A stretch of DNA of 17,342 nucleotides. It comes from Bacteroidia bacterium. Lineage in GTDB: Bacteria > Bacteroidota > Bacteroidia > NS11-12g > UBA955. The notes under the pieces were generated by a model, which was not told where the DNA came from, did no database searches, and saw only the letters and a list, made by a program, of their open reading frames with translations. Shown one piece after another: positions 1 to 15,903 of this stretch; within the stretch, counting starts at the first letter, position 1, and each line of letters starts with the position of its first letter. The translations under genes and the position numbers were made by a program. Where the stretch lies: the NCBI GenBank assembly GCA_023254645.1, contig JALRLA010000037.1, positions 1-17,342 on the forward strand, in the 5' to 3' direction.

Positions 1-20
1 CCCCAAAACCCCAAAACCCC
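1..20. repeat. Hypotrich ciliate telomere repeat (C4A4)
   Basis: The window opens with exactly two and a half units of CCCCAAAA, ending in CCCC. This is the C-rich strand of the macronuclear telomere of spirotrich ciliates. Oxytricha and Stylonychia carry 20 bp of double-stranded repeat in precisely this phase (C4A4C4A4C4), whereas Euplotes carries 28 bp. The length and phase therefore fit an oxytrichid nanochromosome end. It is not a bacterial feature, and nothing like it recurs elsewhere in the window. The two following A residues could be the start of a partial unit. The identification of the repeat is direct; whether the end is physical or an assembly join cannot be told from the sequence. 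Confidence 0.88.
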
Positions 21-64
21 AACGAGCTCATATTTAAATTTAACTTAATGAGTGTGATCAGTCG
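21..64. other. Junction between telomere and bacterial DNA
   Basis: This short stretch links the telomere repeat to bacterial coding sequence. Its first 30 bases are AT-rich with TTTAAATTTAA, as expected of ciliate subtelomeric DNA but also possible for a bacterial intergenic region. From about position 50 the composition becomes mixed. In the frame of the downstream pump gene the codons before 79 read roughly DQSVEASK, which could be the tail of a membrane-fusion protein gene that commonly precedes this type of pump, but no stop codon follows, so this is weak. The exact breakpoint cannot be placed by eye and lies somewhere between 20 and about 79. Confidence 0.45.
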
Positions 65-3000
65 GTGGAAGCATCGAAATGCATGTACAGCAGGTACTGG
101 ACTTTATCAATGAGATGCGGCTGCATTTGCAAGGCTTCCAGCTGGTCGATTGACAACAAGACTATCATTTATATCCTGTCCCTGTTCATCAGTGTGGCCG
201 GTATATTTTCCTACATCAAGATTCCGAAAGAGCGCTTTCCGGACATCGTGATCCCTACGATTTACGTTCAAACGGTTTATCCTGGATCCTCACCCAAAGA
301 CATTGAAAACTTGATTACCAAGCCCATTGAGAAAAAAATCAAGAGCATCAGCGGTGTCAAGCAATTGAAGAGTCAGAGCATTCAAGACTTCTCCATCATT
401 ACCGTCGAATTTGACACCGACGTGGAGGTTGCAGAAGCCAAACAAAAGGTCAAGGACGAGGTAGACAAGGCCAAGAGCGACTTGCCTACTGACCTTCCCT
501 CTGACCCCACCGTACAAGAAGTCAATTTCTCTGACATTCCCATTTTGTACATCAACATCAGTGGGAATTACGATTTGCAAACACTGAAGCGCTACGCCGA
601 AATGGCCAAAGACAAAATTGAGTCATTGCCAGCCATTTCCAAGGTAGACATGGTGGGTGCATTGGACCGCGAAATTCAGGTCAACCTGGATTTGGCTAAA
701 ATGACGGCAGCAGGATTTACCATTGACGATGTTTCTCGTGCCATCCAAATGGAGAATCGACGCATTTCGGGCGGCAACATTGACCTGGACAACATGAAGC
801 GTTCTTTGAGCGTCAGTGGCGAATTTGAATCAGCCGATGAAATTGCTCAGATGTCGGTGCGCAGCAACACAGGAGCCACCTTGCGATTGGGCGATTTTGC
901 CGAAGTCGTAGATGGTTTCAAGGAAAAGGAAAGTTATGCTCGTTTGATGGGCAAAAACGTCATCACCTTGAACATTGTCAAGCGTGCCGGAGAGAACTTG
1001 ATTCAAGCCAGCGATGATTGCCGTGAATTGATCGCGGAATTGCAGGCAGGTCCCTATCCCAAAGATTTGGACGTGGTATTCACCGGTGACCAGAGCACTC
1101 AAACACGCATTACTGTTCACGATTTGATCAACACCATCATCATTGGTTTCATTTTGGTGACCTTGATTTTGATGTTCTTCATGGGAGCTACCAATGCGAT
1201 TTTCGTAGGCTTGTCAGTTCCCCTGTCTTGCTTCATCGCCTTTTTGGTATTGCCCAGTTTGGGATTCTCCTTGAACTTCATCGTTCTTTTCTCCTTTTTG
1301 TTGGCCTTAGGCATTGTGGTCGATGACGCCATTGTCGTTATTGAGAATACCCACCGCATTTTCATGAAGGAAAGTTTGAGCATCGTAGATGCCGCTAAAA
1401 AGGCAGCTGGAGAAGTTTTCATGCCTGTATTCAGTGGTACTCTGACCACCTTGGCTCCTTTTGTTCCCTTGGCCTTTTGGAGCGGCGTGGTAGGTAAATT
1501 CATGTTCTTCCTACCCGTAACCCTGATCATCACCTTGCTGGCTTCCTTATTGGTTGCCTACATCATCAACCCCGTATTTGCGGTTGACTTCATGAAGCGA
1601 GACGATGAGCGCCCTGCCATTGGCAGCCCTGAGGCGAAAAAAGCGGTACGCAAAGCCAGCATCATTATGGGTATCCTCGCTGTCTTTGGCTATGCCCTCG
1701 GCGGATTGGGTCTAGGAAACCTGTTTGTATTCCTATACCTCTTGTACATTCTGCACCATTTTTGGCTCAAAGCCGTCATTGATCGTTTCCAACACGTTCA
1801 CTGGCCACGCGTTCAGAATTACTACAGCCGTGTGGTTTCTTGGATATTGACCGGGAAACGCCCTATTGCCGTGCTTGCAGCGACCTTTTTGATGTTGATT
1901 TTGAGCTTTGTAGCCTTGGGCATTCGCAAACCTGCCGTAGTTTTCTTCCCGCAAGCCGACCCCAACTTTACTTATGTGTATTTAACCATGCCTACTGGAA
2001 CATCGGCCTTGGCCACCGATAGCGTAACTCGCTTGGCTGAAGAACGAGTGTTCCGCGCTGTGGGTGAAAACAATACGTTGGTGGAGTCTATCATTTCCAA
2101 CGTAGCCGTGGGAGCCTCAGACCCGAACAGCGGTGACCGAACCGTGGCCTCCAACAAGAGTAAAATCACCGTTGCCTTTGTGGAATTTTCCAAGCGCAAT
2201 GGTCAAAGCACCCGAGAGTTGTTGGAAAAAATTCGCACGGAACTCGGTGCATTTCCTGGAGTCGAAATGATCGTAGAACAAGAACGCAATGGCCCTCCTG
2301 TGGGCAAAGCGGTCAACGTGGAAATTCGCGGTGACGAGTTCCAAAGTCTGGTTCAAACGGCATCGGCTCTGAAGTTGCACATTGAGTCTCAGAAGATACC
2401 TGGAGTAGAAGAATTGAAGAGCGACTTTGTTGCCTCTAAGCCTGAGGTCATCATTGACATCGATCGCGAAAAAGCCAATCGAATGGGCATTTCTACCTCT
2501 CAAGTGGGTGGCGCCCTTAGAAACAGCATCTACGGCGCTGAACCTAACAAATTCAAAGACGACAATGAAGACTACCCCATCATGGTTCGTTTGGAAGAGA
2601 AAACCGTCAATGACTTGAATGCCTTGTTGAACATGCGCATCTCATACCGAGACATGGTCATGGGTGGTAAAATCAGGGAAATACCGTTGAGCGCCAGTGC
2701 TACGGCTCGGTACACCAATAGTTATGGTGGAATCAACCGCTTGAACCAAAAGCGTGTCATTACTTTGGCTTCAAACGTACTGCCCGGCTATGCTCCTAAC
2801 GAAGTGGTGGCCCAAGTTCAGAAGGCCATCGATCGCTTTGAAAAGCCCGAAGGCCTAGCCATTGAAATGACGGGTGAACAAGAAAAGCAAAAAGAGACAG
2901 GCGCTTTCTTGGGAACGGCGCTGATGACCAGTATTGCCTTGATCATCATCATTTTGGTGACCCAATTCAACTCCATCTCCAAGCCTCTCATCATTTTGTC

Positions 3001-3469
3001 TGAGATCTTGTTCTCTGTCATTGGTGTATTGTTGGGATATGCCATCACGGGCATGTCCTTCTCCATCATCATGACAGGCATCGGTATTGTGGCCTTGGCG
3101 GGTATTGTGGTACGAAATGGCATTTTGATGGTCGAATTTGCCGATCAGTTGATCGCAGAGGGAATGCCCTTGCGCGAAGCCTTGATTGAAGCAGGAAGAG
3201 CGCGTATGACTCCTGTATTATTGACGGCTGCTACCACATCGTTGGGATTGATTCCATTGGCTGTAGGTTTGAATATGGACTTTGTGACCCTATTCACCTA
3301 TGGCAACCCCCATTTGTACTTTGGTGGAGATAGCGTAGCCTTCTGGGGCCCCTTGAGCTGGACCATGATTTTCGGATTGTCGTTCGCGACATTCTTGACC
3401 CTGGTTTTGGTACCGGCCCTTTACTACCTAAATGAAAAAGCCCAAGCCCGTCTCAAGCGCTTGTTCTAA
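65..3469 (+). CDS. RND family efflux transporter permease, N-terminus frame-shifted
   Basis: Inner-membrane pump of the resistance-nodulation-division superfamily, driven by the proton gradient and normally working with a membrane-fusion protein and a TolC-like outer-membrane channel. Recognisable family sequence begins at residue 25 (SSWSIDNK). Helix 1 spans about 33-51, a porter domain follows, then helices 2-6 from about 350. GIVVDDAIVVIENTHR carries the paired acidic residues of helix 4 at Asp420-Asp421. Residues 510-596 form an enlarged helix 6-7 loop with extra hydrophobic stretches, common in the long Bacteroidota pumps. A second porter domain and helices 8-12 end with a typical FGLSFATFLTLVLVPALYYL segment. 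The GTG start at 65 and residues 1-24 (cysteine-rich) are not credible; the native N-terminus lies in another frame at 79. Substrate unknown. Partner genes would lie upstream, beyond the telomere junction. Confidence 0.9.
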   Translation: MEASKCMYSRYWTLSMRCGCICKASSWSIDNKTIIYILSLFISVAGIFSYIKIPKERFPDIVIPTIYVQTVYPGSSPKDIENLITKPIEKKIKSISGVKQLKSQSIQDFSIITVEFDTDVEVAEAKQKVKDEVDKAKSDLPTDLPSDPTVQEVNFSDIPILYINISGNYDLQTLKRYAEMAKDKIESLPAISKVDMVGALDREIQVNLDLAKMTAAGFTIDDVSRAIQMENRRISGGNIDLDNMKRSLSVSGEFESADEIAQMSVRSNTGATLRLGDFAEVVDGFKEKESYARLMGKNVITLNIVKRAGENLIQASDDCRELIAELQAGPYPKDLDVVFTGDQSTQTRITVHDLINTIIIGFILVTLILMFFMGATNAIFVGLSVPLSCFIAFLVLPSLGFSLNFIVLFSFLLALGIVVDDAIVVIENTHRIFMKESLSIVDAAKKAAGEVFMPVFSGTLTTLAPFVPLAFWSGVVGKFMFFLPVTLIITLLASLLVAYIINPVFAVDFMKRDDERPAIGSPEAKKAVRKASIIMGILAVFGYALGGLGLGNLFVFLYLLYILHHFWLKAVIDRFQHVHWPRVQNYYSRVVSWILTGKRPIAVLAATFLMLILSFVALGIRKPAVVFFPQADPNFTYVYLTMPTGTSALATDSVTRLAEERVFRAVGENNTLVESIISNVAVGASDPNSGDRTVASNKSKITVAFVEFSKRNGQSTRELLEKIRTELGAFPGVEMIVEQERNGPPVGKAVNVEIRGDEFQSLVQTASALKLHIESQKIPGVEELKSDFVASKPEVIIDIDREKANRMGISTSQVGGALRNSIYGAEPNKFKDDNEDYPIMVRLEEKTVNDLNALLNMRISYRDMVMGGKIREIPLSASATARYTNSYGGINRLNQKRVITLASNVLPGYAPNEVVAQVQKAIDRFEKPEGLAIEMTGEQEKQKETGAFLGTALMTSIALIIIILVTQFNSISKPLIILSEILFSVIGVLLGYAITGMSFSIIMTGIGIVALAGIVVRNGILMVEFADQLIAEGMPLREALIEAGRARMTPVLLTAATTSLGLIPLAVGLNMDFVTLFTYGNPHLYFGGDSVAFWGPLSWTMIFGLSFATFLTLVLVPALYYLNEKAQARLKRLF
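79..153 (+). other. Displaced native N-terminus of the RND pump (other frame)
   Basis: An ATG at 79, one frame away from the main pump reading, opens 24 codons beginning MHVQQVLDFINEM and ending in a TGA at 151-153. The amphipathic stretch ending in LQGFQL matches the kind of leader that precedes the SSWSIDNK segment in Bacteroidota RND pumps (family pattern ...GFKLSSWSIDN, from memory). The main frame takes over at AGC TGG TCG (140-148). A one-base insertion, or a loss of 2, 5 or 8 bases, near 138-146 would reconnect the frames. One concrete possibility is an 8-base loss between two copies of CAGCTG, leaving the single copy seen at 139-144. It may be a real mutation or a sequencing or assembly error close to the contig end. 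Confidence 0.6.
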
Positions 3470-3486
3470 GCTTGATGGGCTAGTGT

Positions 3487-3520
3487 AAAAAGCCGCGGCG
3501 CTCTGCGCCGCGGCTTTTTT
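3487..3520 (+). terminator. Strong intrinsic terminator after the RND gene
   Basis: A perfect 10-bp stem (GCCGCGGCGC, loop TCT, GCGCCGCGGC) is flanked by an A-tract on the left and six T residues on the right, 18 bases after the pump stop codon. Because both flanks are A/T-tracts, it can also stop transcription arriving from the opposite strand. Confidence 0.92.
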
Positions 3521-3666
3521 ATACCCTCTATAGGCAAATCTCTATGCTGTTGATGCAATCGTGGAATTAAGCCCAAAAGGGGCTCCTTTCAGCGGCCCAT
3601 GAGCCAACAAGTGAAACAGAACGGTGTGCACTGTTAACCAAAGACCTCCCTGATTCTTAACCCCAT

Positions 3667-3697
3667 AAAAAAAGCCGCTCTGTTGAAGCGGCTTTTT
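3667..3697 (-). terminator. Intrinsic terminator after the coiled-coil protein gene
   Basis: A 6-bp GC stem (GCCGCT / AGCGGC, loop of seven) extends through flanking A and T tracts, giving a bidirectional terminator 17 bases past the stop of the minus-strand gene at 3715. Its arm shares the AAAAAGCCGC sequence with the terminator at 3487. The roughly 146 bases between the two terminators (3521-3666) hold no credible open frame or RNA gene. Confidence 0.8.
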
Positions 3698-3714
3698 ACT
3701 AATGCCTAAAGCGA

Positions 3715-4641
3715 TTAATTCAATTCAAAAGTATTCTTCTGGCGAAGCAATCCGCGGGTCCACAACTCGCAGGTGTATTTGCCTTTTGTCAAACGACCTT
3801 CCAATGTCCCTTTTTGAGGAAAATACCACTTTACCTTTTGCAATGCACCATCAAATTGGATGGTCTCATTCAAGGAAACAACGGTACTCTTATCCTGCAA
3901 TGATTTGTTGGTTGTTGACAATATAGCCCCGTTGGGATCAATAACGCGAATGACGATTTGCTCTTCCACAACTGAAGTAACCAAAGGGTTTTCCAAGATG
4001 TCGAAGGTGATCATCAACTTCTCAAGATTCTTCGCTGAGGTAGAAGGCTCACGCTGGCCTTTTCTCTGCATCAATCCTGTGGTCAACAAGGCTCCAAATT
4101 GTGGACGAGCACCTCTTTCCAAACGATCCTTTAAGTCGAAGTTCTCAGCCGTCAAAATTTGGTTGTTTTCTCGAGCCGAATCCAGTTCAGCCACCATAAT
4201 GGCACGCTCATTCGACATTTGTTCAATTTGTGCCATAAGCTCAGCCACTCGCTTCTTGGCCTCTTCCAACTGACGACGCAAATCTTCAAGACTTCCTGTC
4301 TTTCCCATGCTAGTTCCAGTATTCCCACCTCTAGCCAACTGGCGTCTCAAACTGTAAATTTGTTTGTAAGCTTCAATGACTCTTGGGTTGTTATCTCCCT
4401 CAAGTAACTCAACTTTTGAAACCAAAGTTGCATTTTCATTTCGATAGTTTTGTACCAACGCATTCAACGAATCTTCTACGCGCAGCAATTCTTGTTCAAC
4501 AGAATCTCTTTGACGGCGCATTTGGATTTCGTTTTCTATGGCAATTTGACCTTTGCTTTTTTCTGAAAATAAGAATGCATTGGCTCCCAATGACAGGAGA
4601 AGCAAAACAATCAAGAGGGCGGTTACGGCGGTTTTCTTCAT
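3715..4641 (-). CDS. Membrane-anchored coiled-coil protein, function unknown
   Basis: A 308-residue protein. Residues 1-3 (MKK) plus a hydrophobic segment at about 4-24 form an uncleaved signal anchor or signal peptide. Residues 35-80 and 115-177 are charged and heptad-like, predicting two coiled-coil stretches joined by a Gly/Asn/Thr-rich linker (104-117). From about 205 a beta-rich C-terminal domain follows (KLMITFDILEN ... VIRVIDPNGAIL ... GKYTCELWTRG). Similar proteins in Flavobacteriia are often labelled only as hypothetical or, misleadingly, as chromosome-partitioning proteins; I see no ATPase motif. Most likely it sits in the inner membrane with the coiled coil in the periplasm. I chose the ATG at 4641 over a TTG 24 bases upstream because a promoter -7 box lies at 4663-4670, which would place the longer start before transcription begins, and GAAGG precedes this ATG. 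It is convergent with the RND gene. Confidence 0.8.
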   Translation of the reverse strand: MKKTAVTALLIVLLLLSLGANAFLFSEKSKGQIAIENEIQMRRQRDSVEQELLRVEDSLNALVQNYRNENATLVSKVELLEGDNNPRVIEAYKQIYSLRRQLARGGNTGTSMGKTGSLEDLRRQLEEAKKRVAELMAQIEQMSNERAIMVAELDSARENNQILTAENFDLKDRLERGARPQFGALLTTGLMQRKGQREPSTSAKNLEKLMITFDILENPLVTSVVEEQIVIRVIDPNGAILSTTNKSLQDKSTVVSLNETIQFDGALQKVKWYFPQKGTLEGRLTKGKYTCELWTRGLLRQKNTFELN

Positions 4642-4662
4642 AGTTACCTTCGGTGTATTACA

Positions 4663-4693
4663 CAATATTAACCCTCAAAAAACACCCAAGAAA
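4663..4693 (-). promoter_or_regulatory. Bacteroidota-type promoter for the coiled-coil protein gene
   Basis: Reading the minus strand, TTTC (4690-4693), 19 bases, then TAATATTG (4663-4670). The Bacteroidota consensus is TTTG, 19-21 bases, TAnnTTTG, so each element has one mismatch. Transcription would start around 4656, leaving a leader of roughly 15 bases before the ATG at 4641. Confidence 0.5.
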
Positions 4694-4725
4694 CCACTCG
4701 ACCAAAAATGGGATATATTCTGACC

Positions 4726-4743
4726 AAAAAAAGGTTTTCAACC
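4726..4743 (-). terminator. Weak terminator after the TlpA-like gene
   Basis: Just after the TAG at 4747 the minus strand reads GGTT-GAA-AACC followed by seven T residues. The 4-bp stem is short, so termination would be partial and some read-through into the coiled-coil gene is likely. Confidence 0.3.
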
Positions 4744-4746
4744 GGG

Positions 4747-6123
4747 CTACAACCCCAATAAAACCTGAATATTAGCATCAGCATCCACAATTCGTCCACA
4801 AGCGTCAATTTTCAGGACTTGTGGCAATGATTGCCACTGCATTTTGCGAGCGGCTCGATTGTCCATTACAATTTGATCATAAGCAAAGCCAAATCGTCGA
4901 TTCAAGGTTTGAACATACCTCGCATTTCCACCTTGAGCAACCATCATGATTCGAACATTCAGAATCGATTGAGGATCTTGAACCCATTTTCGAATCTCCC
5001 GCAATGAGGGCTCTTCCCCATCGTGCTCCCGTTTGTAGACAATACTCAAATCTTGCCAGGCGCGGAACTGATTTTGAGAAAAATCGGCTAGAGCAAGGGA
5101 ATCGGTTGCACTCAACCCCATGTCCGGCTGCCAAACATAGATCCATACTGGTTGATTCCTGTATACTCTCCAACTTCGGTGAATTCCCAACTTTTGCGGG
5201 GAATACAAGCCCGCATCGACCAATTGATACTTAACACGAGGAATTCGCTTTCCCTTTATCAACGGATGATCACCGTCGTCTTGCTCGGCGATGCAAACTT
5301 GAGAACCCGACAGAGACAGTCTCCATGGCCTTCCTCTCCACACAGTATGAACCAATCCTGTGCGAGATTCCCATGCAAATGCTCTTTCATCGTCAAAATA
5401 CAATGAATCCATTGAAATCAGAACCTTATCAACTCCTCTATCTCCGAATTGACCGTTGAAATTTTGATCAATGACCGCCACATATACTTGTTTGCTTGAA
5501 TCAAGGGAAAAGGACCCCCAGCGCAAATTCAAGCGTTGGTATCGAAAAGCAGAAGCGGCACCCATATAGACACGGGGACCACACAACGAATGCACTGAGG
5601 CATCGTGCATTTGGGCAAAGGCCGAAAACCGCCCTACAGGAAAAGGCTCCATCAAAAGAGAAAGTCCAGGAGCCAAACTCAATTTCCATGGAATAAATAG
5701 ATTCCAGAGAGTATCGCCTTTGACATGACTAAAGTCCAAATTCCCATTGGGATCTACCCAGTAGACTCTGATCATTCGGCCTTGGTGCAATTGTTCCTGC
5801 ACTAAGACCAAAGTATGATCTTCGATGGGCCCCTCATAATCTCGTCTCGCATAGACCCAGAAATAGGAGTTTCTCGAGCTCCCCAGATTCCAATTCTCAG
5901 GTCTTTTGAAGGCAAATTGGCGCGGAATATCACCCAGACTAGCCGAAGCCAAATCCAAGGGTTCGTAAATGGAATCTCCAGAAAGGACAAAACGATTGAT
6001 GGGCTGCATAGAGCGCAGCTCGCTTTGTGATACGCCTTGACGAGACAATTCAATGCATCTTGGGGACTGAGCGTAAGTGGCTAAGACCCAAAACCATAAC
6101 AGCGATACCAGAACTCGTTTCAA
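4747..6123 (-). CDS. Secreted TlpA-like protein lacking the redox CxxC
   Basis: A 458-residue exported protein. Residues 1-18 form a signal peptide (MKR, hydrophobic core, ATYA before QS). The middle is beta-rich and holds an acidic, EF-hand-like loop, DQNFNGQFGDRGVD (219-232), of a type often seen in Bacteroidota thioredoxin-like secreted proteins. From about 320 the pattern of a TlpA/AhpC thioredoxin fold appears: PVWIYVWQPDM where the active-site strand should be, and QSLPQVLKIDACGRIV near the end, with Pro434 in the cis-proline position. The CxxC after the first strand is absent (Trp-Gln-Pro-Asp instead), so disulfide chemistry is unlikely. It starts with TTG at 6123, three bases after the stop of the 51-residue gene upstream, which suggests translational coupling; the next Met (residue 40) would lose the signal peptide. 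The ligand or partner is unknown. Confidence 0.75.
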   Translation of the reverse strand: MKRVLVSLLWFWVLATYAQSPRCIELSRQGVSQSELRSMQPINRFVLSGDSIYEPLDLASASLGDIPRQFAFKRPENWNLGSSRNSYFWVYARRDYEGPIEDHTLVLVQEQLHQGRMIRVYWVDPNGNLDFSHVKGDTLWNLFIPWKLSLAPGLSLLMEPFPVGRFSAFAQMHDASVHSLCGPRVYMGAASAFRYQRLNLRWGSFSLDSSKQVYVAVIDQNFNGQFGDRGVDKVLISMDSLYFDDERAFAWESRTGLVHTVWRGRPWRLSLSGSQVCIAEQDDGDHPLIKGKRIPRVKYQLVDAGLYSPQKLGIHRSWRVYRNQPVWIYVWQPDMGLSATDSLALADFSQNQFRAWQDLSIVYKREHDGEEPSLREIRKWVQDPQSILNVRIMMVAQGGNARYVQTLNRRFGFAYDQIVMDNRAARKMQWQSLPQVLKIDACGRIVDADANIQVLLGL

Positions 6124-6126
6124 GGA

Positions 6127-6282
6127 TTACTTGAATACAAATCGAACCAAAATAATTACCAATGCGATGGCGAACATAAGCAGGCTAACCCGATTCATGC
6201 CGTGCATGAGCCGAGTATTCAAATTCCGTTCGCCCTCTTGCTTTTGGAAGGTCAAATAGGACCAGATTTTTCTGAAGATCAT
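6127..6282 (-). CDS. DUF6728-like small inner-membrane protein (51 aa)
   Basis: A 51-residue gene between lon and the TlpA-like gene, short enough to be missed by length filters. The N-terminal half is charged (MIFRKIWSYLTFQKQEGERN), then comes LNTRLMHGMNRVSLLMFAIALVIILVRFVFK, with MHGxNRxS followed by one transmembrane helix at about 33-49. This matches my memory of the DUF6728 family of Bacteroidota: about 50-60 residues, a conserved MHGIN motif and a single C-terminal helix. Its function is unknown. The ATG lies 15 bases after the lon stop and the TAA ends three bases before the next start, so it is embedded in a tight co-oriented cluster. A perfect TAnnTTTG element sits at 6286-6293, so it may also have its own promoter. 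Confidence 0.75.
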   Translation of the reverse strand: MIFRKIWSYLTFQKQEGERNLNTRLMHGMNRVSLLMFAIALVIILVRFVFK

Positions 6283-6285
6283 ACC

Positions 6286-6293
6286 CAAATATA
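6286..6293 (-). promoter_or_regulatory. Possible -7 promoter element before the small membrane gene
   Basis: The minus strand reads TATATTTG, a perfect match to TAnnTTTG, ending three bases before the ATG at 6282. No TTTG lies 19-21 bases further upstream. If it is used, the transcript would be leaderless. Confidence 0.35.
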
Positions 6294-6297
6294 CAGT

Positions 6298-8769
6298 TTA
6301 TTTCGAGGCTTTCTCGCTGGAAACGACCAACTGGATGGGTTGGGCAACAGGCTCTTCGGTCAAGGCCAAATCCAAGACTTGCAGCATGTTGCTAACGTAG
6401 CTAAACTGCATCCCTTTGATGTAAGCCTCAGGAATATCCATAATGTCTTTGCGGTTTTGCTCACACAAAATCACCTCTTGAATACCCGCTCGTTTGGCCG
6501 CCAATACTTTTTCCTTGATTCCACCGACTGGTAGAACCTTGCCTCTCAAGGTGATTTCCCCGGTCATGGCCAAGCGATTTTTTACCCGTTTTTGGGTCAT
6601 CAAGGAAGCCAGAGAGGTCAATACCGTTACCCCTGCTGACGGGCCGTCTTTGGGAATGGCCCCAGCTGGGAAATGCACGTGAATATCATAGGAATCGAAA
6701 AGTTCAGCCTCCAGTCCCAAATAATCGGAATGGGCTCTCAAGAAACTGGCTGCTATGTGCACCGACTCTTTCATAACATCTCCCAATTGACCGGTGATTT
6801 GAAGCCTGCCCTTCCCTTTTGACAAGGCACTTTCAACAAACAACACCGAACCGCCCATGGGTGACCAAGCCAATCCCGTTACCACACCTGCTGTTTCGTT
6901 GTTCTCGTAGTGTTCAGGTTCCAATTTCTCAGCACCCAAAACGGATTCCACCTCTTCTGTTTTGAAGGTCGGATTATAGGGCGATTCAGAAGCCACGTGT
7001 TGGGCCGCAGAACGAGCCAAGGCCGCAATCTTCTTATCCAAACCACGTACGCCTGACTCTCTTGTATATTGCTCTATGAGTACTTCTAAGGCCTTATCTG
7101 TCACCTTGAAATCTTTGACTTTCAATCCGTGCGCCTTTCGCTGCTTAGGAACCAGGTATTTCTTAGCAATTTCTTTTTTCTCCTCGATGCTGTATCCGCT
7201 GATATCAATGATCTCCATGCGGTCTAACAAAGCGGGTTGAATGTTATCCAATGAATTGGCTGTGGCTACGAACAATACTTTGCTGAGATCGTAATCCATC
7301 TCTAGGTAATTGTCGTAGAAGGTGGCATTTTGCTCAGGATCCAATACCTCCAACAAGGCACTTGATGGGTCGCCTCGGAAATCGCGCCCCAACTTATCGA
7401 TTTCATCCAACACGAACACCGGGTTGCTGCTGCCTACCTTTTTCAGATTCTGGATGATTCGACCGGGCATGGCACCAATGTAGGTTTTGCGATGGCCTCT
7501 AATCTCTGATTCATCATGCAATCCACCCAAAGACATTCTCACATACTGTCGCCCTAAGGCTCTAGCGATGGACTTACCCAAACTGGTCTTTCCTACTCCT
7601 GGAGGGCCATACAAGCAGATAATAGGGCTTTTCATATCCCCCTTCAGCTTGAGAACGGCCAAGTATTCCAAAATGCGTCGTTTCACCTTCTCCAAGCCAA
7701 AGTGGTCCTCGTCAAAAACGGCACGAGCGTGATTCAAATCAAAATTGTCTTGGGTAACTTCATTCCATGGCAGGTCCAACAACAACTGCACATAATTCAA
7801 GCCCACCGAATAATCAGGAGAAGCTGGATTGATGCGCATCAAGCGATCCAATTCTTTGTTAAAATGTTCGTGTACCGATTTGCTCCAGGCTTTAGCATCG
7901 CCCTTTTCGCGCAGATTGTCAATCTCTTTATCAGGTGTATCACCTCCTAATTCTTCTTGAATGGCGCGTATTTGCTGCTGCAAGAAGTATTCTTTTTGCT
8001 GCTTATCAATGTCGATTCTGACCTTGTTTTGGATTTGATCTTTGAGCTCCAACATTTGCAGCTCTTTCAATACATACTCCAATACCTTAGAAGCTCTTTT
8101 GGTCGGATTCAACTCCTCCAAAAGTGCCTGCTTTTCATGCAATTCGATGTTCAAATTGCTCGCTACAAAGTGAATCAAGAATCGATTCGAATCGATATTT
8201 TTCAAGGCAATCACAGCTTCACTCGGGATATTGGGCGACAGAGCGATGATTCGTTGACTGACATCCTTGATGCTGTCAATGATGGCTTGGTATTCCTTGT
8301 CTTCTTGGAAAGCTTCGTCATCCAAATGGGTCGTATTGGCTTTCAAGTAAGGGTCTTCTTGGGTATACTCCCCAATCGAAATTCTGCGCTTGCCCTGAAT
8401 GATGACCGTAGAGCTGCCATCGGGCATGCGCATCAAGCGAACAATCTGAGCCAGAGTTCCAATGGGATACAAATCGGATGGGCCTGGATCTTCCATTTCG
8501 GGATTGCGCTGGGCCACCACAGCGATGGTTTTATCAGCCTTATTGGCCTCTTTGATCAAACGAATGCTCTTGTCTCGCCCTACGGTAATGGGAAAAATCA
8601 CCCCCGGAAAAAGGACGGTATTTCGAATTGTCAATACTGGCAATTCGCTGGGCACCGACATGCGGTTGCTCTCTTCCTCCTCTTGTTTGGAAAATAGCGG
8701 GAGGAACTCCGGACTATCGTCCATTTGATCGTGATTCAATTGCCAGATGGATTCGTTGGGATCAAACAT
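6298..8769 (-). CDS. lon: ATP-dependent Lon protease
   Basis: Cytosolic AAA+ serine protease that unfolds and degrades damaged and short-lived regulatory proteins. At 823 residues it has the full three-part layout: an N-terminal substrate-binding domain starting at LPVLTIRNTVLFPGV (about residue 44), a long coiled coil near 250-300, an AAA+ module, and a C-terminal protease domain. Walker A is GPPGVGKT (388-395), with Walker B VFVLDEIDK at 451-459. The catalytic dyad is Ser711 in DGPSAG and Lys752 in GGIKEKVLAA. The ATG at 8769 gives a typical Bacteroidota N-terminal extension. It heads the minus-strand cluster and is divergent from the lipoprotein gene across 160 bases that contain a direct repeat. 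No CIRCE-like heat-shock operator was seen. Nothing in it is truncated or degenerate. Confidence 0.98.
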   Translation of the reverse strand: MFDPNESIWQLNHDQMDDSPEFLPLFSKQEEEESNRMSVPSELPVLTIRNTVLFPGVIFPITVGRDKSIRLIKEANKADKTIAVVAQRNPEMEDPGPSDLYPIGTLAQIVRLMRMPDGSSTVIIQGKRRISIGEYTQEDPYLKANTTHLDDEAFQEDKEYQAIIDSIKDVSQRIIALSPNIPSEAVIALKNIDSNRFLIHFVASNLNIELHEKQALLEELNPTKRASKVLEYVLKELQMLELKDQIQNKVRIDIDKQQKEYFLQQQIRAIQEELGGDTPDKEIDNLREKGDAKAWSKSVHEHFNKELDRLMRINPASPDYSVGLNYVQLLLDLPWNEVTQDNFDLNHARAVFDEDHFGLEKVKRRILEYLAVLKLKGDMKSPIICLYGPPGVGKTSLGKSIARALGRQYVRMSLGGLHDESEIRGHRKTYIGAMPGRIIQNLKKVGSSNPVFVLDEIDKLGRDFRGDPSSALLEVLDPEQNATFYDNYLEMDYDLSKVLFVATANSLDNIQPALLDRMEIIDISGYSIEEKKEIAKKYLVPKQRKAHGLKVKDFKVTDKALEVLIEQYTRESGVRGLDKKIAALARSAAQHVASESPYNPTFKTEEVESVLGAEKLEPEHYENNETAGVVTGLAWSPMGGSVLFVESALSKGKGRLQITGQLGDVMKESVHIAASFLRAHSDYLGLEAELFDSYDIHVHFPAGAIPKDGPSAGVTVLTSLASLMTQKRVKNRLAMTGEITLRGKVLPVGGIKEKVLAAKRAGIQEVILCEQNRKDIMDIPEAYIKGMQFSYVSNMLQVLDLALTEEPVAQPIQLVVSSEKASK

Positions 8770-8829
8770 GGTATTCTACATTACAAGTGCCATGCCAAGT
8801 AAGGCCGCAATGTCAGTTATCGAGAAATC

Positions 8830-8856
8830 TATGACAACAACCCACCATGTATGACA
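8830..8856. repeat. Direct repeat TATGACA in the lon upstream region
   Basis: TATGACA occurs at 8830-8836 and 8850-8856, a 20-bp period that places the copies on the same face of the helix, two turns apart. The first copy touches a candidate lon -7 box (minus strand TAGATTTC, 8824-8831, one mismatch to TAnnTTTG). The arrangement suits a regulator binding site, but the motif is only 7 bp and its function is inferred. Confidence 0.35.
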
Positions 8857-8873
8857 GAATGGCGCATTTGAGG

Positions 8874-8905
8874 TTTGCAAAATCTGAACTCATCACCGAG
8901 ATTTG
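8874..8905 (+). promoter_or_regulatory. Promoter of the lipoprotein gene
   Basis: TTTG (8874-8877), a 20-base spacer, then GAGATTTG (8898-8905) fits the Bacteroidota -33/-7 consensus with one mismatch in TAnnTTTG. Transcription would start near 8912, about 18 bases before the ATG at 8930. Confidence 0.5.
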
Positions 8906-8929
8906 TGAAAATCGTTTCGAACTAGAACT

Positions 8930-9784
8930 ATGAAATTCAAACACATTCTTTGGGCTTTGGCAGTACCTGCCTTGGCTTTTTTGGCCTCTTGCGGTGAAGA
9001 CAGCAAGGACCCCAAACCGACTTTAGCCCTTACTGGTGGTGCGGGCCTTATTGCTGGTGATTGCCAAGTTGGTCCTGACTCTATGTTGGCTTTCAGCATT
9101 ACAGCTACTGCTGGATCTGAAAACTTGAAAGGCGTGACCATCACCGCATCCGTCAATGGTGCTTCTGCCGTTGTAGCTTTTGACACCATGCTTACAGGAA
9201 AGACCGCGAGCTTTTTGGCTCAGCGCCAAGTGGCTGGTAACGTCGGTGATGAGGTTGTTTACACCATCACTGCTGCCGATGCCAATGGCCAAACGGCCGA
9301 AGTTAAATTGAACATTGAGGTAGCGCCCGCCTTGTTGCCCCTTGACAATTTGGTACAAGGTCAAAAGGTTTACAATTATTTGTACAATGGATTCCCTTCT
9401 GGTTACAACCTGAACCTGGGTTTGGCCTTGACGTCTGGATCAGCGGGAACCTTGAAAGACATTTTGGACAAAACTCCTACTGGAGCCGCTGAATTCACCT
9501 CTACTTGGGGTAGCGGAAACGGCGCCAAGTTCGTTCGCGTTACAGCCAATGACTACACCAATGCTAGTACCACAACCTTCTTGTACAATTTGTGGAAAGC
9601 CAATGCGGCATCGGCAACTACCGAGATTAGCAACATTGTAAAAAACGACATCATTTTGGTTAAAACAGGCCAAGATTTGACCTACAACATTTATATTTTG
9701 AAAATTGAGAATGTTGTCATCAATACCGCCGCTGGTAACCACAACGACTACATTCAATTCGCCTACAAGGGCAAAGACAATTAA
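8930..9784 (+). CDS. Surface or periplasmic lipoprotein with Ig-like domain, unknown role
   Basis: A 284-residue protein with a lipoprotein signal: MKFKH, a hydrophobic core, then the lipobox LAS-C with the lipidated cysteine at 21. GEDSKD follows; a charged stretch after the cysteine is typical of lipoproteins exported to the Bacteroidota cell surface. Residues about 30-131 look like an immunoglobulin-like beta sandwich (repeated SITAT, VTITASV, VVYTITAADANGQ). The remaining half is Asn/Thr-rich with alternating strands and ends in NIYILKIENVVINTAAGNHNDYIQFAYKGKDN. I recognise no catalytic motif. It stands alone, with a promoter before and a terminator after it, so it is a single-gene unit. 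It might bind a polymer or a surface partner, but that is a guess. Confidence 0.75.
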   Translation: MKFKHILWALAVPALAFLASCGEDSKDPKPTLALTGGAGLIAGDCQVGPDSMLAFSITATAGSENLKGVTITASVNGASAVVAFDTMLTGKTASFLAQRQVAGNVGDEVVYTITAADANGQTAEVKLNIEVAPALLPLDNLVQGQKVYNYLYNGFPSGYNLNLGLALTSGSAGTLKDILDKTPTGAAEFTSTWGSGNGAKFVRVTANDYTNASTTTFLYNLWKANAASATTEISNIVKNDIILVKTGQDLTYNIYILKIENVVINTAAGNHNDYIQFAYKGKDN

Positions 9785-9805
9785 TCTACCAAACGTGTAG
9801 AAACG

Positions 9806-9832
9806 AAAAATCCCGCTTCGGCGGGATTTTTT
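9806..9832 (+). terminator. Intrinsic terminator with UUCG tetraloop
   Basis: ATCCCGC, loop TTCG, GCGGGAT, with A residues before the stem and a run of six T residues after it, 22 bases past the lipoprotein stop. The very stable tetraloop makes this a confident call; it separates the lipoprotein from pfkA. Confidence 0.92.
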
Positions 9833-9833
9833 G

Positions 9834-9866
9834 TTTGGTCCCTACCCTTCTTTTGGTCCAAATTTG
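9834..9866 (+). promoter_or_regulatory. Promoter of the pfkA-recN operon
   Basis: TTTG (9834-9837), a 21-base spacer, then CAAATTTG (9859-9866), one mismatch from TAnnTTTG. The GTG start of pfkA is six bases further on, so the transcript would have almost no leader. Confidence 0.55.
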
Positions 9867-9872
9867 TACTTA

Positions 9873-10841
9873 GTGAAACGTATTGCTGTATTAACATCAG
9901 GGGGCGACGCACCGGGCATGAATGCTTGCATTCGTGCGGTTGTGCGAGCGGCCATACATTTTGACTTTGAAGTTTACGGCGTTCAACGCGGTTATCAAGG
10001 ATTGATCGAGAATTCCATTAAAAAGATGTCTGCAGGTAGTGTAGCCAACATCATTCAGCTGGGTGGAACAGTACTCAAGACAGCTAGAAGCAAGGAATTC
10101 ATGACTCCCGAAGGCCGTAAAAAGGCCTACGAAAACCTTCAAAAACACGGAATTGAAGGATTGGTGTGCATTGGAGGTAATGGTACCTATACCGGTGCTA
10201 TGATTTTTGAAAAAGAATTTGGCATTCCCAGCGTTGGATGTCCCGGAACCATAGACAACGATTTGTCAGGTACCGATTATACCATTGGTTATGACACAGC
10301 CATCAACACGGCTATGGATGCCATTGACAAAATTCGCGATACAGCAGACAGCCACAACCGCGTCTTTTTCATCGAAGTTATGGGACGTCATTCTGGGCAC
10401 ATCGCCTTGAATGCTGGTATTGCGGGCGGTGCTGAAGGAATTTTCATCCCTGAGCGCGAAAACGAGCTGCGCGACATCATGAAAACATACGAAAACAAGC
10501 GACGCAAAAAGGAGTTCAGCATTTTCGTAGTGGCCGAAGGCGAAGAAGATGGCAAAGCCTTTGACATAGCCCACAAATTCCAAGAGGCCTACCCCGAAAC
10601 CGATTGCAAAGTGACCGTTTTGGGCCACATTCAACGTGGAGGCCGGCCCACTGCAAACGACCGTATATTGGCTTCAAGGCTTGGCGCACATGCCGTGAAA
10701 GCTCTGAGCGAAGGCCATCGCAATGTGGCCATTGGTGTCATAGACAATTCCATTGAACTAACACCTTTCCAAGAGGCTATTTACGCCAAAAAAGACGTCA
10801 ATGAAAACCTCTGGGTCATGAACAGCATCATTACTCGATAA
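9873..10841 (+). CDS. pfkA: 6-phosphofructokinase
   Basis: Glycolytic kinase converting fructose 6-phosphate to fructose 1,6-bisphosphate in the cytosol. I take the GTG at 9873 (322 residues, VKRIAVLTSGGDAPGMN), because the 14 codons before it overlap the promoter and do not resemble the family. Visible motifs: GGDAPGMN (10-17), PGTIDND with the catalytic aspartate at 128 (124-130), EVMGRHSG (168-175), and GHIQRGGRP (251-259). The nucleotide-binding loop reads IGGNGTYTGA (100-109). ATP-dependent enzymes usually have GGDGS/T there and pyrophosphate-dependent ones GGDD, so Asn103 replaces the magnesium-coordinating aspartate while Gly104 keeps the ATP-type signature. Donor use is therefore probably ATP but worth testing. 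It is followed after one base by recN, so the two are co-transcribed. Confidence 0.95.
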   Translation: MKRIAVLTSGGDAPGMNACIRAVVRAAIHFDFEVYGVQRGYQGLIENSIKKMSAGSVANIIQLGGTVLKTARSKEFMTPEGRKKAYENLQKHGIEGLVCIGGNGTYTGAMIFEKEFGIPSVGCPGTIDNDLSGTDYTIGYDTAINTAMDAIDKIRDTADSHNRVFFIEVMGRHSGHIALNAGIAGGAEGIFIPERENELRDIMKTYENKRRKKEFSIFVVAEGEEDGKAFDIAHKFQEAYPETDCKVTVLGHIQRGGRPTANDRILASRLGAHAVKALSEGHRNVAIGVIDNSIELTPFQEAIYAKKDVNENLWVMNSIITR

Positions 10842-10842
10842 T

Positions 10843-12516
10843 ATGCTCACACGGGTTCGCATTTCCAATTACGCGTTGATCCAACACATGGATTTGCAAT
10901 TCCCAAACGGATTGATCACTGTAACAGGTGAAACTGGAGCCGGCAAAAGCATTTTGCTCGGAGCCTTAGGGCTGCTTATGGGCAACCGGGCTGACCACAG
11001 TGTACTCATGGATGCCCAAACCAAATGTATTGTAGAAGGCGAATTTGATATCCAATCACTGGGATTGGAGTCGTTTTTTGAAGACGAAGACCTGGATTAT
11101 TCAAGTACGACCATCATTCGAAGAGAAATCGCTCCAGGAGGCAAAAGCCGATGCTTCATCAATGACACACCCGTGAGCTTAGCCCAAGCCAAAACACTAG
11201 GCTCCCAACTGCTTGATATTCATACGCAAAACACTCATTTATTGGTCACTCAGAAAGAGGAACAACTGCAATTATTGGATGAGTATGCTGAAAATGGTGA
11301 ACTGTTCAGGAGCTATAAACATTCGCTCAGTCGTCTGAATAAGATTAACAAAGAAATCGAAGCATTTGAGTCTCAACAGCAGGCTTGGATGAGAGAGCGA
11401 GAATTCAATCAATTCCAATTCGATGAATTGTTCTCCTTTCAACCCAGCACTGAGGAAGAGTCTCGACTCGAATCAGAGATCGCTCTACTCAGCCAAAGTG
11501 AAGAGGTAAAAACTGCGTTAATGGGATCTCATCAATCCCTGTCCAATGCCGATACTGCCCTACTGGATGGTCTGAATTCCATTCGAAGCCATTTGAAGCG
11601 TTTTCGAGGAATAAACTCCGAATTAGACTCATTTTTTTCAAGACTTGACGAGGCTTCATTGGAGTTAAGCGATATTTCTGATAGCCTCGCACAGTGGGCT
11701 GATTCAATGGTCTATGATCCCGTTCGATTGGATGTAGCCAACGAACGTCTGGCCAAGCTCCAAACCTTATTAAGAAAACACCAAGCGGCTAGTTCAGATG
11801 ACCTCATAGCCATCATGCAAAGCCTTGAAAAGTCCTTAATGGGTGTCCAAGAGCAGCAAAGCCATATAGAGGCGCTGAGAAGGGAAAAATCTCTGGTGGA
11901 TTCGGAGTGTCGAGATTTAGCGGAACAATTGCATCAACGTCGCTTGAAAGCGGGAATGCAATGGTGCCAAGAGCTTAGCCTCATGTTGCATCGTTTGGAT
12001 ATACCTGACGCAAAAATTGAGTGCAAATGGGATTATGAGCCTGGACAATTCAAAGGTCATGGATCAGATGAACTAAGTCTTCAATTTACAGCCAACAAAG
12101 GATTACCAGCCAGAGATTTAGACAAAGTAGCATCAGGAGGAGAACTCTCCCGTTTGAACTTCAGTATTCGGAGTTTAGGCGCAGCCAAACGGCCTTCTGC
12201 CACCCTGATTTATGACGAGGCTGACACTGGAATTTCGGGACCCGTAGCTCTTCAAATGGGTCAATTGTTGAGAACCATGGGACTTCATATGCAGACCGTG
12301 GCCATCACCCATCTTCCGCAGGTAGCCAGTGCTGGAAATCATCAACTTTTTGTGTACAAAGACCGCGATTCTGATCAAACAACGAGCCAATTCAAATGGC
12401 TAGACAGGAACGAGCGCATATACCAGTTGGCTCAATTGCTGAGCCACGAAAACCCCAGTGATTCAGCTATAAAAAATGCGGAAGAACTGTTGGATTCTTT
12501 TGAGGAATCAAAGTAA
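10843..12516 (+). CDS. recN: DNA repair protein RecN
   Basis: SMC-like ATPase that acts at double-strand breaks and helps RecA-dependent recombination. Its 557 residues match the usual length. The N-terminal half-ATPase begins MLTRVRISNYALI and carries Walker A GETGAGKS (29-36). QLLDIHTQNTHLL is the RecN version of the Q-loop region. A coiled coil spans about 150-390, and the C-terminal half-ATPase has the signature VASGGELSRL (429-438), Walker B LIYDEADTGISG (Asp458, Glu459), and AITHLPQVA with the switch histidine. The ATG follows the pfkA stop by a single base, so translation is probably coupled. No SOS-type operator is visible, as expected inside an operon. Its last 9 bases overlap the end of rnhA on the other strand. 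Confidence 0.97.
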   Translation: MLTRVRISNYALIQHMDLQFPNGLITVTGETGAGKSILLGALGLLMGNRADHSVLMDAQTKCIVEGEFDIQSLGLESFFEDEDLDYSSTTIIRREIAPGGKSRCFINDTPVSLAQAKTLGSQLLDIHTQNTHLLVTQKEEQLQLLDEYAENGELFRSYKHSLSRLNKINKEIEAFESQQQAWMREREFNQFQFDELFSFQPSTEEESRLESEIALLSQSEEVKTALMGSHQSLSNADTALLDGLNSIRSHLKRFRGINSELDSFFSRLDEASLELSDISDSLAQWADSMVYDPVRLDVANERLAKLQTLLRKHQAASSDDLIAIMQSLEKSLMGVQEQQSHIEALRREKSLVDSECRDLAEQLHQRRLKAGMQWCQELSLMLHRLDIPDAKIECKWDYEPGQFKGHGSDELSLQFTANKGLPARDLDKVASGGELSRLNFSIRSLGAAKRPSATLIYDEADTGISGPVALQMGQLLRTMGLHMQTVAITHLPQVASAGNHQLFVYKDRDSDQTTSQFKWLDRNERIYQLAQLLSHENPSDSAIKNAEELLDSFEESK

Positions 12517-12993
12517 TCCCTGCTGCGAGCGTTCAGAAGCTTCGTAAAAAGAATCAACCTCTGTGGGTTTGGATTTTGCCGCTTGGGTGGCTAAAAAATC
12601 ACAGCGTTCATTTTCGGGTATACCTGCATGCCCTTTCACCCAATTGAATTCAGGATTGAATGCTTTATTCAGTGGGATCAACTGTTTCCATAAATCAGGA
12701 TTTTTCACCTTGGCCCAGCCTTTTCGCTGCCATCCGGCAATCCAATTCTTCACAATGGCATCGTGAACGTATTTGCTATCGGTGTAAATGGATACCGGTA
12801 TACCAGGCTGCTTGATCATCTCCAAGGCCTTGATCACCGCTAGAAGCTCCATGCGATTGTTGGTGGTTCGACGAAATGACCCCGAGAGTTCACGACGGTA
12901 TTCACCGTACATCAACACGGCGCCGTATCCGCCGGGCCCAGGGTTACCCAAGGCCGCTCCATCGGTATAAATTGTGATACGTGGTGTTGACAC
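12508..12993 (-). CDS. rnhA: Ribonuclease HI
   Basis: Endonuclease that cuts the RNA strand of RNA-DNA hybrids, such as R-loops and replication primers. The 161-residue length is normal. The four metal-binding acids are present: Asp11 (IYTDG), Glu49 (NNRMEL), Asp72 (IYTDSKYV) and Asp132 (NERCD), together with the helper His122 in WVKGHAG. The basic WIAGWQRKGW segment (84-93) is the substrate-handle region typical of bacterial type 1 enzymes. It starts with GTG at 12993, four bases after a -7-like element. It is convergent with recN, the stop codons overlapping within 9 bases with no terminator between them, and divergent from cinA across only 51 bases. Confidence 0.97.
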   Translation of the reverse strand: MSTPRITIYTDGAALGNPGPGGYGAVLMYGEYRRELSGSFRRTTNNRMELLAVIKALEMIKQPGIPVSIYTDSKYVHDAIVKNWIAGWQRKGWAKVKNPDLWKQLIPLNKAFNPEFNWVKGHAGIPENERCDFLATQAAKSKPTEVDSFYEASERSQQGLL

Positions 12994-12997
12994 CCTT

Positions 12998-13005
12998 CGA
13001 ATTTA
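12998..13005 (-). promoter_or_regulatory. Possible -7 element for rnhA
   Basis: The minus strand reads TAAATTCG, one mismatch from TAnnTTTG, four bases before the GTG. No matching -33 box was found. AAGG between it and the start could alternatively serve as a weak ribosome-binding site. Confidence 0.3.
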
Positions 13006-13029
13006 AAACAATGCCCGACCTTCATTGGT

Positions 13030-13037
13030 TAATTTTG
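13030..13037 (+). promoter_or_regulatory. Possible -7 element for cinA
   Basis: TAATTTTG is a perfect TAnnTTTG, ending seven bases before the cinA ATG at 13045. No TTTG is present 19-21 bases upstream. If active, the mRNA has essentially no leader. Confidence 0.4.
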
Positions 13038-13044
13038 TACACAG

Positions 13045-14316
13045 ATGAAAGCAGAAATCATCACCATAGGAGACGAGTTGCTCATTGGGCAGACCATTGA
13101 TACGAATAGCGCTTGGCTCGGCCAAACCCTCGGATCTGTGGGAATTCAAATTGTTCGAAAAACCGCTGTGTCTGATAACAAACAAGCGATTTTCAATGCC
13201 TTAGACAGTAGCCTTAGTCAAGTTTCCTTGGTCATCATTACCGGTGGTCTAGGTCCTACTCGCGACGATATCACCAAGCATTCATTGGTGGAATATTTTG
13301 GAGGATCCTATCGAACAGACCAAGTTGTTCTCGCCCATTTGGAAGAATTGTTTGCCAAACGCGGTCGCAAGATGATGGAGGTGAACAAGATGCAAGCTGA
13401 ATTGCCCGAGCGCTGCCAAACATTATTCAATAAAGTTGGCACCGCTCCGGGAATGTGGTTTGAAGACCATCGAGGAATTGTCATCAGCTTGCCCGGAGTT
13501 CCGAATGAAGTTCAATGGATCACGCAGCATGAAATCATTCCCAGGATCCAAGAACAATTCAGCCTAAAAAGCAGGGAGCACCGCACACTGCTCTGTTTAG
13601 AAACCCCTGAGAGCTTACTTAGTAAGCACTTAGAAAGTTTTGAAGATCGTCTACCCCCTTCCTATTCTTTGGCCTACCTGCCCCAATTTAACAGCATTCG
13701 GCTTCGCTTGAGTCAAGTTGTTCAAGACACAGATGGCGATTTGGGCATGGAACATTGGTTTCAAGAACTCCAAAACGAACTCGGATCCCTCTGCTTTGGA
13801 ATTGGAGACAAAACAGCCGCTGAATTTGTGGCCGAATTTGCTTTGAACCGCCAGATTCAATTAGTCGGTGCTGAAAGTTGCACAGGCGGCTATACCACCA
13901 ATCAGTTGATTCAGGTTCCAGGCATGAGCGCGGCCATTCCGGGCTCGATCATTGCCTACAGCAACCAAGTCAAAATGGACATTTTGGGCGTTAACCCCCA
14001 GACACTCGAGTCTCACGGTGCAGTCAGTTTGGAAGTGGGTTTGGAGATGGCCATAGGAGCCATTCGAATGTTCAACGCTGATTTTGCGTTTTCCCTGACT
14101 GGAATTGCAGGTCCTAGCGGCGGATCAGCCGAAAAGCCCGTTGGAACCGTGGTTCTAAACTTGGTTTCTACCCAAAGACCCAACAGTATCGATGGGATTG
14201 TAGAGACCGATGGGCTGTACATCCACCAAAAGATGAAGCAAATTCCCGGCAACCGCTTGCAATTCATGCAACGGGCCAGCAACAGTGTTTTCGCTCTATT
14301 CCAACCCTGGTTTTAG
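13045..14316 (+). CDS. cinA: CinA family protein (competence/damage-inducible; NMN amidohydrolase domain)
   Basis: A 423-residue two-domain protein. The N-terminal COG1058 domain (1 to about 170) starts MKAEIITIGDELLIGQTIDTNSAWL and holds GGLGPTRDD (67-75) and LPGVP; in characterised relatives it hydrolyses ADP-ribose or NAD-related pyrophosphates. The C-terminal PncC-type domain (about 258-423) carries AESCTGG with the nucleophile Ser278, then IAYSNQVKMDILGV and SLTGIAGPSGG; in relatives it deamidates nicotinamide mononucleotide. Together they suggest pyridine-nucleotide salvage. The competence link in the name comes from Gram-positive bacteria and is not shown here. It ends in TAG with no terminator before guaA. 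The short divergent spacing from rnhA leaves little room for complex regulation. Confidence 0.95.
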   Translation: MKAEIITIGDELLIGQTIDTNSAWLGQTLGSVGIQIVRKTAVSDNKQAIFNALDSSLSQVSLVIITGGLGPTRDDITKHSLVEYFGGSYRTDQVVLAHLEELFAKRGRKMMEVNKMQAELPERCQTLFNKVGTAPGMWFEDHRGIVISLPGVPNEVQWITQHEIIPRIQEQFSLKSREHRTLLCLETPESLLSKHLESFEDRLPPSYSLAYLPQFNSIRLRLSQVVQDTDGDLGMEHWFQELQNELGSLCFGIGDKTAAEFVAEFALNRQIQLVGAESCTGGYTTNQLIQVPGMSAAIPGSIIAYSNQVKMDILGVNPQTLESHGAVSLEVGLEMAIGAIRMFNADFAFSLTGIAGPSGGSAEKPVGTVVLNLVSTQRPNSIDGIVETDGLYIHQKMKQIPGNRLQFMQRASNSVFALFQPWF

Positions 14317-14352
14317 GGTAAAATTTGTCGATAACAGACGAGCAATCGGTGG

Positions 14353-14360
14353 TACTTTTG
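14353..14360 (+). promoter_or_regulatory. Possible -7 element for guaA
   Basis: TACTTTTG, a perfect TAnnTTTG, ends four bases before the guaA ATG. The nearest upstream TTTG (14324-14327) is 25 bases away, longer than the usual 19-21, so the -33 part is doubtful. No purine riboswitch is present in the 48-base gap after cinA. Confidence 0.35.
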
Positions 14361-14364
14361 CTCC

Positions 14365-15900
14365 ATGTCTACAGAGAAAATTCTGATCCTTGATTTTGGG
14401 TCTCAATACACGCAATTAATCGCCCGCCGATTGCGAGAATTGTTCGTGTACTGCGAGATTCATCCCTTTCATGATAACATTGAATTGACCGATGAAATCA
14501 AAGGGATCATTTTCTCAGGCAGCCCTTGCAGCGTGAATGAAGAAAATGCACCCAGCATTGACTTGAACAAGTATTTCCAGCATGGCCCCGTTTTGGGTGT
14601 TTGTTATGGCGCTCAGTACATGGCCAAACATTTGGGAGGCAACGTTGGACGCAGCCAACACCGCGAATATGGTCGTGCCATGCTCCAACACAGTTCGGAT
14701 CACGCATTATTGACGGATGTGGCCAACCCTTCTCAGGTTTGGATGAGCCATGGCGACACCATTTTGTCTCTGCCCGAAAATGCCAAAGTCATCGCTACTA
14801 CAGAATCCATTCCTGTTGCCGCTTTTGAGGTGGAAAATCAATTTCCAACCTATGGCATTCAATTCCATCCTGAAGTGTACCACAGCACAGAAGGCATGCA
14901 AATGCTGAAGAATTTCGCCTATACCATCTGTCAATGCTCTGGCGATTGGACTCCAGGACACTTCATTGAAGAATGCGTGGCCCAAATCCAAGAGCAAGTT
15001 GGCCCTGACGATCAAGTCATCTTGGGTCTTTCAGGGGGAGTAGATAGCTCAGTGGCTTCTCTCCTTCTCAACAAAGCCATTGGTCATCGATTGACTTGCA
15101 TCTTTATCGACAATGGCTTGTTGCGCAAAAACGAATTCCAAGACGTCCAAGAAGCCTACAAAGAACTGAAGCTAAACATCATAGCAGTAGATGCCTCACA
15201 GCGATTCTACGATGCCTTAAAGGGCATTTCAGAACCTGAAGCCAAGCGCAAAACCATAGGCCGTGTCTTTGTTGAGGTCTTCCAAGAAGAATCCAAGAAA
15301 ATTCAAGGAGCCAACTGGCTTGCTCAAGGAACCATTTACCCAGACGTCATTGAAAGTGTATCGGTCAATGGCCCTTCTGCCACCATCAAGAGCCACCACA
15401 ATGTCGGCGGATTGCCTGAAGACATGCACCTGAAGGTAGTAGAACCCCTGAGATCCCTATTCAAAGACGAAGTTCGTCGAGTGGGAACCGCTTTGGGTCT
15501 GCCCGCTATCCTGCTCAATAGACATCCATTCCCAGGCCCGGGATTGGGAATTCGAATTTTGGGGGACATCACGGCAGAAAAGGTCCAATTGTTGCAGGAG
15601 GCCGATTACATCTACATGAAAAAACTCCAAGACAGCGGTTGGTACAACAAAATCTGGCAAGCAGGAACCATCTTGCTCCCCGTTCAAAGCGTTGGTGTCA
15701 TGGGTGATGAGCGCACCTACGAACAAGTCGTTGCCCTTCGAGCTGTAAGCAGCACAGACGGCATGACGGCAGACTGGGTACACCTACCCTACGATCTTTT
15801 GGCTGACATCAGCAATTCCATTATCAACGGCGTTCGAGGAATCAATCGAGTCGTGTACGACATTAGTTCCAAGCCGCCAGCCACCATCGAGTGGGAATAA
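14365..15900 (+). CDS. guaA: GMP synthase (glutamine-hydrolysing)
   Basis: Converts XMP to GMP using glutamine and ATP, the last step of guanine nucleotide synthesis. The 511 residues include both activities. The glutamine amidotransferase domain (1 to about 190) has Cys80 in GVCYGAQ and the partners His168 and Glu170 in IQFHPEV. The ATP pyrophosphatase domain has the P-loop SGGVDSS (223-229). The dimerisation domain ends with the family-typical [19 protein letters not shown]. All catalytic residues are present. The next gene starts four bases after the stop (15904), so it and probably the methyltransferase after it are co-transcribed with guaA. Confidence 0.98.
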
Positions 15901-15903
15901 ACC

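Follow-up and report, generated by a model that had tools for sequence, protein, structure and literature searches.

A spirotrich-type telomere at the tip of a bacterial contig, very probably a chimeric contig end

Introduction

TGA is the sole known stop codon in Halteria and Oxytricha, and 20 bases of C4A4 repeat fit spirotrichs more widely than Oxytricha and Stylonychia. Two genome studies describe how closely genes approach the telomere in such ciliates: in Halteria most stop codons lie ~63 bp from it (PMC7858049), while in Oxytricha the stretch that follows the stop runs from 10 to 3,859 bp with a mean of 210, the subtelomere comprises ~50 bp of biased composition, and the macronucleus carries tens of millions of telomeres (PMC3558436). 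For the macronuclear genome of Euplotes focardii, the authors report no nanochromosomes with bacterial sequence despite the presence of a bacterial consortium, a negative that is weakened by the assembly having been cleaned of bacterial reads beforehand (PMC8455672). Interspecies chimeric contigs are a described product of metagenome assembly, and low-coverage members are prone to them (PMC7881036).

The window, meaning the whole stretch of DNA analysed here, is an entire contig of 17,342 bases (G000:C99) from a metagenome-assembled genome (MAG) of 1.92 Mb in 424 contigs. Its left end resembles the nanochromosome ends of Oxytricha and Halteria (PMC3558436; PMC7858049) in its C4A4 telomere, its AT-rich subtelomere and the short distance between stop and telomere; it differs from them in that a tip of ~137 bases gives way to bacterial DNA, in having no second telomere, and in a candidate gene without a match. 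The likeness to interspecies chimeric contigs (PMC7881036) lies in a sudden change, at an assembly gap, from one genome to an unrelated one, whereas the foreign part is here easily spotted by its terminal telomere.

Results

Telomere at the contig start

Bases 1–20 are exactly CCCCAAAACCCCAAAACCCC (C4A4C4A4C4), as the sequence-only reading had claimed, and the repeat thus starts with the contig itself, where a spirotrich nanochromosome would carry it. A search of the whole MAG found one exact copy, this one. Allowing up to three mismatches, shuffled windows gave a mean of 0.01 matches (2 of 200 shuffles had one); a reversed-pattern control is void for this 20-mer because it is its own reversal. 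A 16-base telomere-like pattern scanned across the MAG with up to two mismatches gave 10 sites (3 forward, 7 reverse) versus 5 and 6 for its reversed control. The telomere of the window accounts for two of these ten; of the remaining eight, the six on contigs of known length do not lie within 30 bases of a contig end. The sequence-only reading had assigned the telomere to Oxytricha or Stylonychia; the spirotrich type stands, and the assignment to those genera is not established, given the wider fit of this telomere noted above. It had also raised a telomere at the opposite end of the contig: we looked for one at 17342 and found none, so that the contig is telomeric at 1–20 only. The right end falls within an open reading frame (ORF), and the contig may be incomplete there.

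The features of the window are as follows (coordinates, strand, description).

1..20, plus strand: macronuclear telomere of spirotrich type (C4A4C4A4C4) that forms the contig end, sole exact copy in the MAG
21..57, no strand: AT-rich subtelomere, read from its architecture as probable 3' untranslated sequence belonging to a ciliate gene
58..137, minus strand: putative ciliate gene, C-terminal end, with a TGA stop at 58–60 and the frame open to at least 162
130..162, no strand: join zone, imperfect bacterial match from 130 and unbroken identity to the same-genus genome G002 from 138 through 162
138..3469, plus strand: bacterial gene for an RND-type pump, native start missing, intact in relatives
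3470..17342, no strand: ordinary bacterial genes, collinear with the same-genus genomes G001 and G002

Segment between telomere and bacterial DNA

The 117 or so bases that follow the telomere look like a spirotrich chromosome end, being AT-rich at first and then occupied by a minus-strand frame that ends in TGA. GC content is 27.5% over 21–60, in keeping with a biased subtelomere of ~50 bp, and 48% over both 61–137 and the contig as a whole. The frame extends out of the join zone as far as the TGA at 58–60, leaving 37 bases between stop and telomere, and since this distance lies within the ranges given in PMC7858049 and PMC3558436, it counts in favour of a nanochromosome end. Positions 1–129 had no match in 31 loci of relatives, and 21–140 had neither a match nor a second copy in the remainder of the MAG. 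The region encoding a 34-residue peptide, a short query, was searched for a ciliate gene without a match in Pfam (three reading frames), in PDB sequences or in a region search of a protein collection. Positions 58–137 are probably ciliate coding DNA, as the telomere and the architecture, rather than homology, suggest; a reading of this segment on the plus strand is a conceivable alternative.

Join zone and truncated pump gene

The sequence-only reading had placed an RND pump gene within ~60 bases of the contig start. Homology to G002 begins instead at 130 (the BLAST edge) or 138 (the start of 25 bases of unbroken identity, 138–162), and nothing earlier matched the 31 relative loci. The switch is sharp, from a left part that is presumably ciliate to one that is bacterial from 130–138 onward. 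A search with the pump protein matched all 38 genomes covered, the MAG among them, and two of these, G001 and G002, belong to the MAG's genus. In both, native sequence runs intact across the position of the switch: the pump has ~10 additional codons at its start and other bacterial sequence upstream, and the copy in the window thus lacks its native start. The ORF listed from the GTG at 65 is a chance frame that spans the join.

A k-mer shared by ciliate and bacterium was considered as the cause of the join. The 25-base identity shows only bacterial origin at 138–162 and is uninformative on such a k-mer. Just inside the bacterial side, at 163–165, the window differs from G002 at two bases, giving isoleucine where all six relative loci compared have serine; this is either a strain variant or a mistake introduced at the join.

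Rest of the contig and the neighbouring contig

From the join to the contig end the window follows G002 (contigs C16 and C31) collinearly at 98% identity, and over the same span it is collinear with G001 in pieces of 71–82% identity. Searching the MAG with the region upstream of the pump in G002 found a further contig, C306 (L200, G000:C306), whose match extends to its last base (6670) and ends at 13020 on the G002 stretch L032. The window starts at 13744 on the same stretch, so C306 stops 723 bases upstream and the join sits at an assembly gap. This argument is weaker than it appears, since identity to G002 is 88% for C306 and 98% for the window contig; the bin may mix strains or species, with C306 perhaps from another strain.

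Recurrence of the telomere in other assemblies

An exact scan for the 20-mer in public stretches returned at least 114 stretches among genome contigs and 16 among viral contigs. Among the matches listed, 79 of 130 carried it within 30 bases of an end (64 at offset 0) and the other 51 at 30 or more bases from the ends, and where an end began in telomere phase it had exactly 20 bases in 55 of 65 cases. Sorted solely by ORF cover under table 11, a rough procedure that surely contains errors (ciliate genes with few TAA or TAG codons being counted as bacterial), the 79 telomere-ended stretches among these matches comprise 11 two-ended, 11 ciliate-like, 47 bacterial-like and 10 mixed. Within the sorted stretches, L099 is apparently a chance repeat.

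In the bacterial-like class, again among the matches listed, the first long ORF lies 250 bases or fewer from the telomere in 20 of 47. The remaining 27 have it farther in, up to 2,634 bases, and short foreign tips are therefore not general in this class; in L058 and L137, kilobases precede the first long table-11 ORF. Six of ten telomere-near ORFs had Pfam families (trigger factor, SecA, TonB receptor, AMP-binding enzyme, DegT aminotransferase and M28 peptidase) and four had none. When 12 MAGs were searched whole, 9 had the 20-mer just once, and in each of these it sat at a contig end, as in the window.

For five of these nine MAGs, which represent different bacteria, the telomere-ended contig was compared with relatives, and each is bacterial only from 67–199 bases inward. 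The switch to bacterial sequence, in bases from the telomere end, is given below.

L124: 72
L054: 67–71
L097: 122
L145: 129
L094: 199

Between telomere and bacterial DNA these contigs have 46–178 bases without a bacterial match, a range that is biased short because they were hand-picked for a long ORF near the telomere. At positions 1–35 of another stretch, L060, acgctcttccgatct precedes the telomere; we take it to be the end of an Illumina adaptor, and this contig seems to show a natural chromosome end ligated to adaptor. None of the titles listed in literature searches deals with telomere-ended contigs from bacterial MAGs, although the phenomenon may still have been published.

Discussion

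Positions 1 to ~137 are very probably the end of a spirotrich nanochromosome that became attached, artificially, to a bacterial contig edge during library preparation or assembly. A spirotrich ciliate in the same sample would have supplied this macronuclear end, in which the telomere is followed by a brief untranslated region and then, probably, by the C-terminal part of a minus-strand gene. Ciliate nanochromosome ends are very abundant natural DNA termini, and one of them may have been attached through a chimeric library fragment or by an assembler bridging two low-coverage sequences. The contig would then stop after exactly 20 telomere bases because the natural molecule ends there, and would have been kept in the bacterial bin because it is 99% bacterial. 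An artificial join of a ciliate chromosome end to bacterial DNA was also what the sequence-only reading preferred, and the present results support it while moving the join from ~60 to ~130–138. The chimeric tip is very probably a recurring artefact rather than a bacterial gene that acquired its telomere inside a ciliate.

Capping had been entertained in that reading as the more remarkable possibility: ciliate telomerase would have added a telomere directly to an end of bacterial DNA, and a telomere is indeed present at the contig end. The telomere is not seated on bacterial sequence, however. The ~117 bases without a bacterial match that separate the two, together with the continuous bacterial locus in same-genus genomes, contradict direct addition, and unmatched bases intervene in the five other contigs too; the probability of this origin is close to nil. 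It might also be proposed that the molecule is real in another way, a ciliate chromosome end having fused to a bacterial fragment in the macronucleus and been replicated as a hybrid nanochromosome, given that the contig runs without a break from telomere through subtelomere into bacterial DNA and that similar contigs recur in unrelated MAGs. Such a molecule sits poorly with a second contig end that has no telomere, with a bacterial part that is an unmodified collinear stretch of genome held in a bacterial bin, with a join near an assembly gap, and with the Euplotes focardii study, which reports no nanochromosomes with bacterial sequence (PMC8455672). No observation in this analysis requires a fused molecule, and we consider it very unlikely.

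A third origin would dispense with the ciliate altogether, positions 1–137 being strain-specific bacterial DNA, produced by native rearrangement, in which C4A4C4A4C4 occurs by chance. The 51 of 130 stretches among the matches listed in which the 20-mer lies away from the ends lend this some plausibility, as they include copies deep inside bacterial contigs, several of them Microcystis. In the window, however, the 20-mer starts exactly at base 1 and is followed by a tract of 27.5% GC in a contig of 48% GC, no other copy exists in the MAG, and the relatives keep other sequence upstream of the pump, all of which makes a native origin extremely unlikely.

If the join was made in vitro or in silico, as is most likely, its biological weight is small, and its use lies in quality control. 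A terminal C4A4C4A4C4 flags ciliate contamination or chimerism in prokaryotic assemblies, and the tips of telomere-ended contigs should be trimmed or inspected before they are used to argue for gene transfer. Were fused molecules real after all, the recurrent telomere-to-bacterium contigs in MAGs would be snapshots of the uptake of bacterial DNA into ciliate nuclei.

Several further assemblies carry such telomeres. In MAG_CO256, labelled Candidatus Paceibacterota, eight stretches (L040, L041, L082, L093, L100, L104, L138 and L139) terminate in C4A4 arrays, and three of these do so at both ends; ciliate nanochromosomes may make up part of the bin. Three stretches from a MAG labelled Chloroherpeton thalassium (L043, L059 and L109) have C4A4 telomeres, at both ends in two of the three, and hold no table-11 ORF of 150 codons or more; these are ciliate-like contigs inside a bacterial bin. 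In the MAG that contains L145, a second contig, C111 (L195, positions 1584–1776), shares 193 bases, at 98.4% identity, with the beginning of the bacterial part of the telomere-ended contig and then diverges, which reflects either a second join or a repeat.
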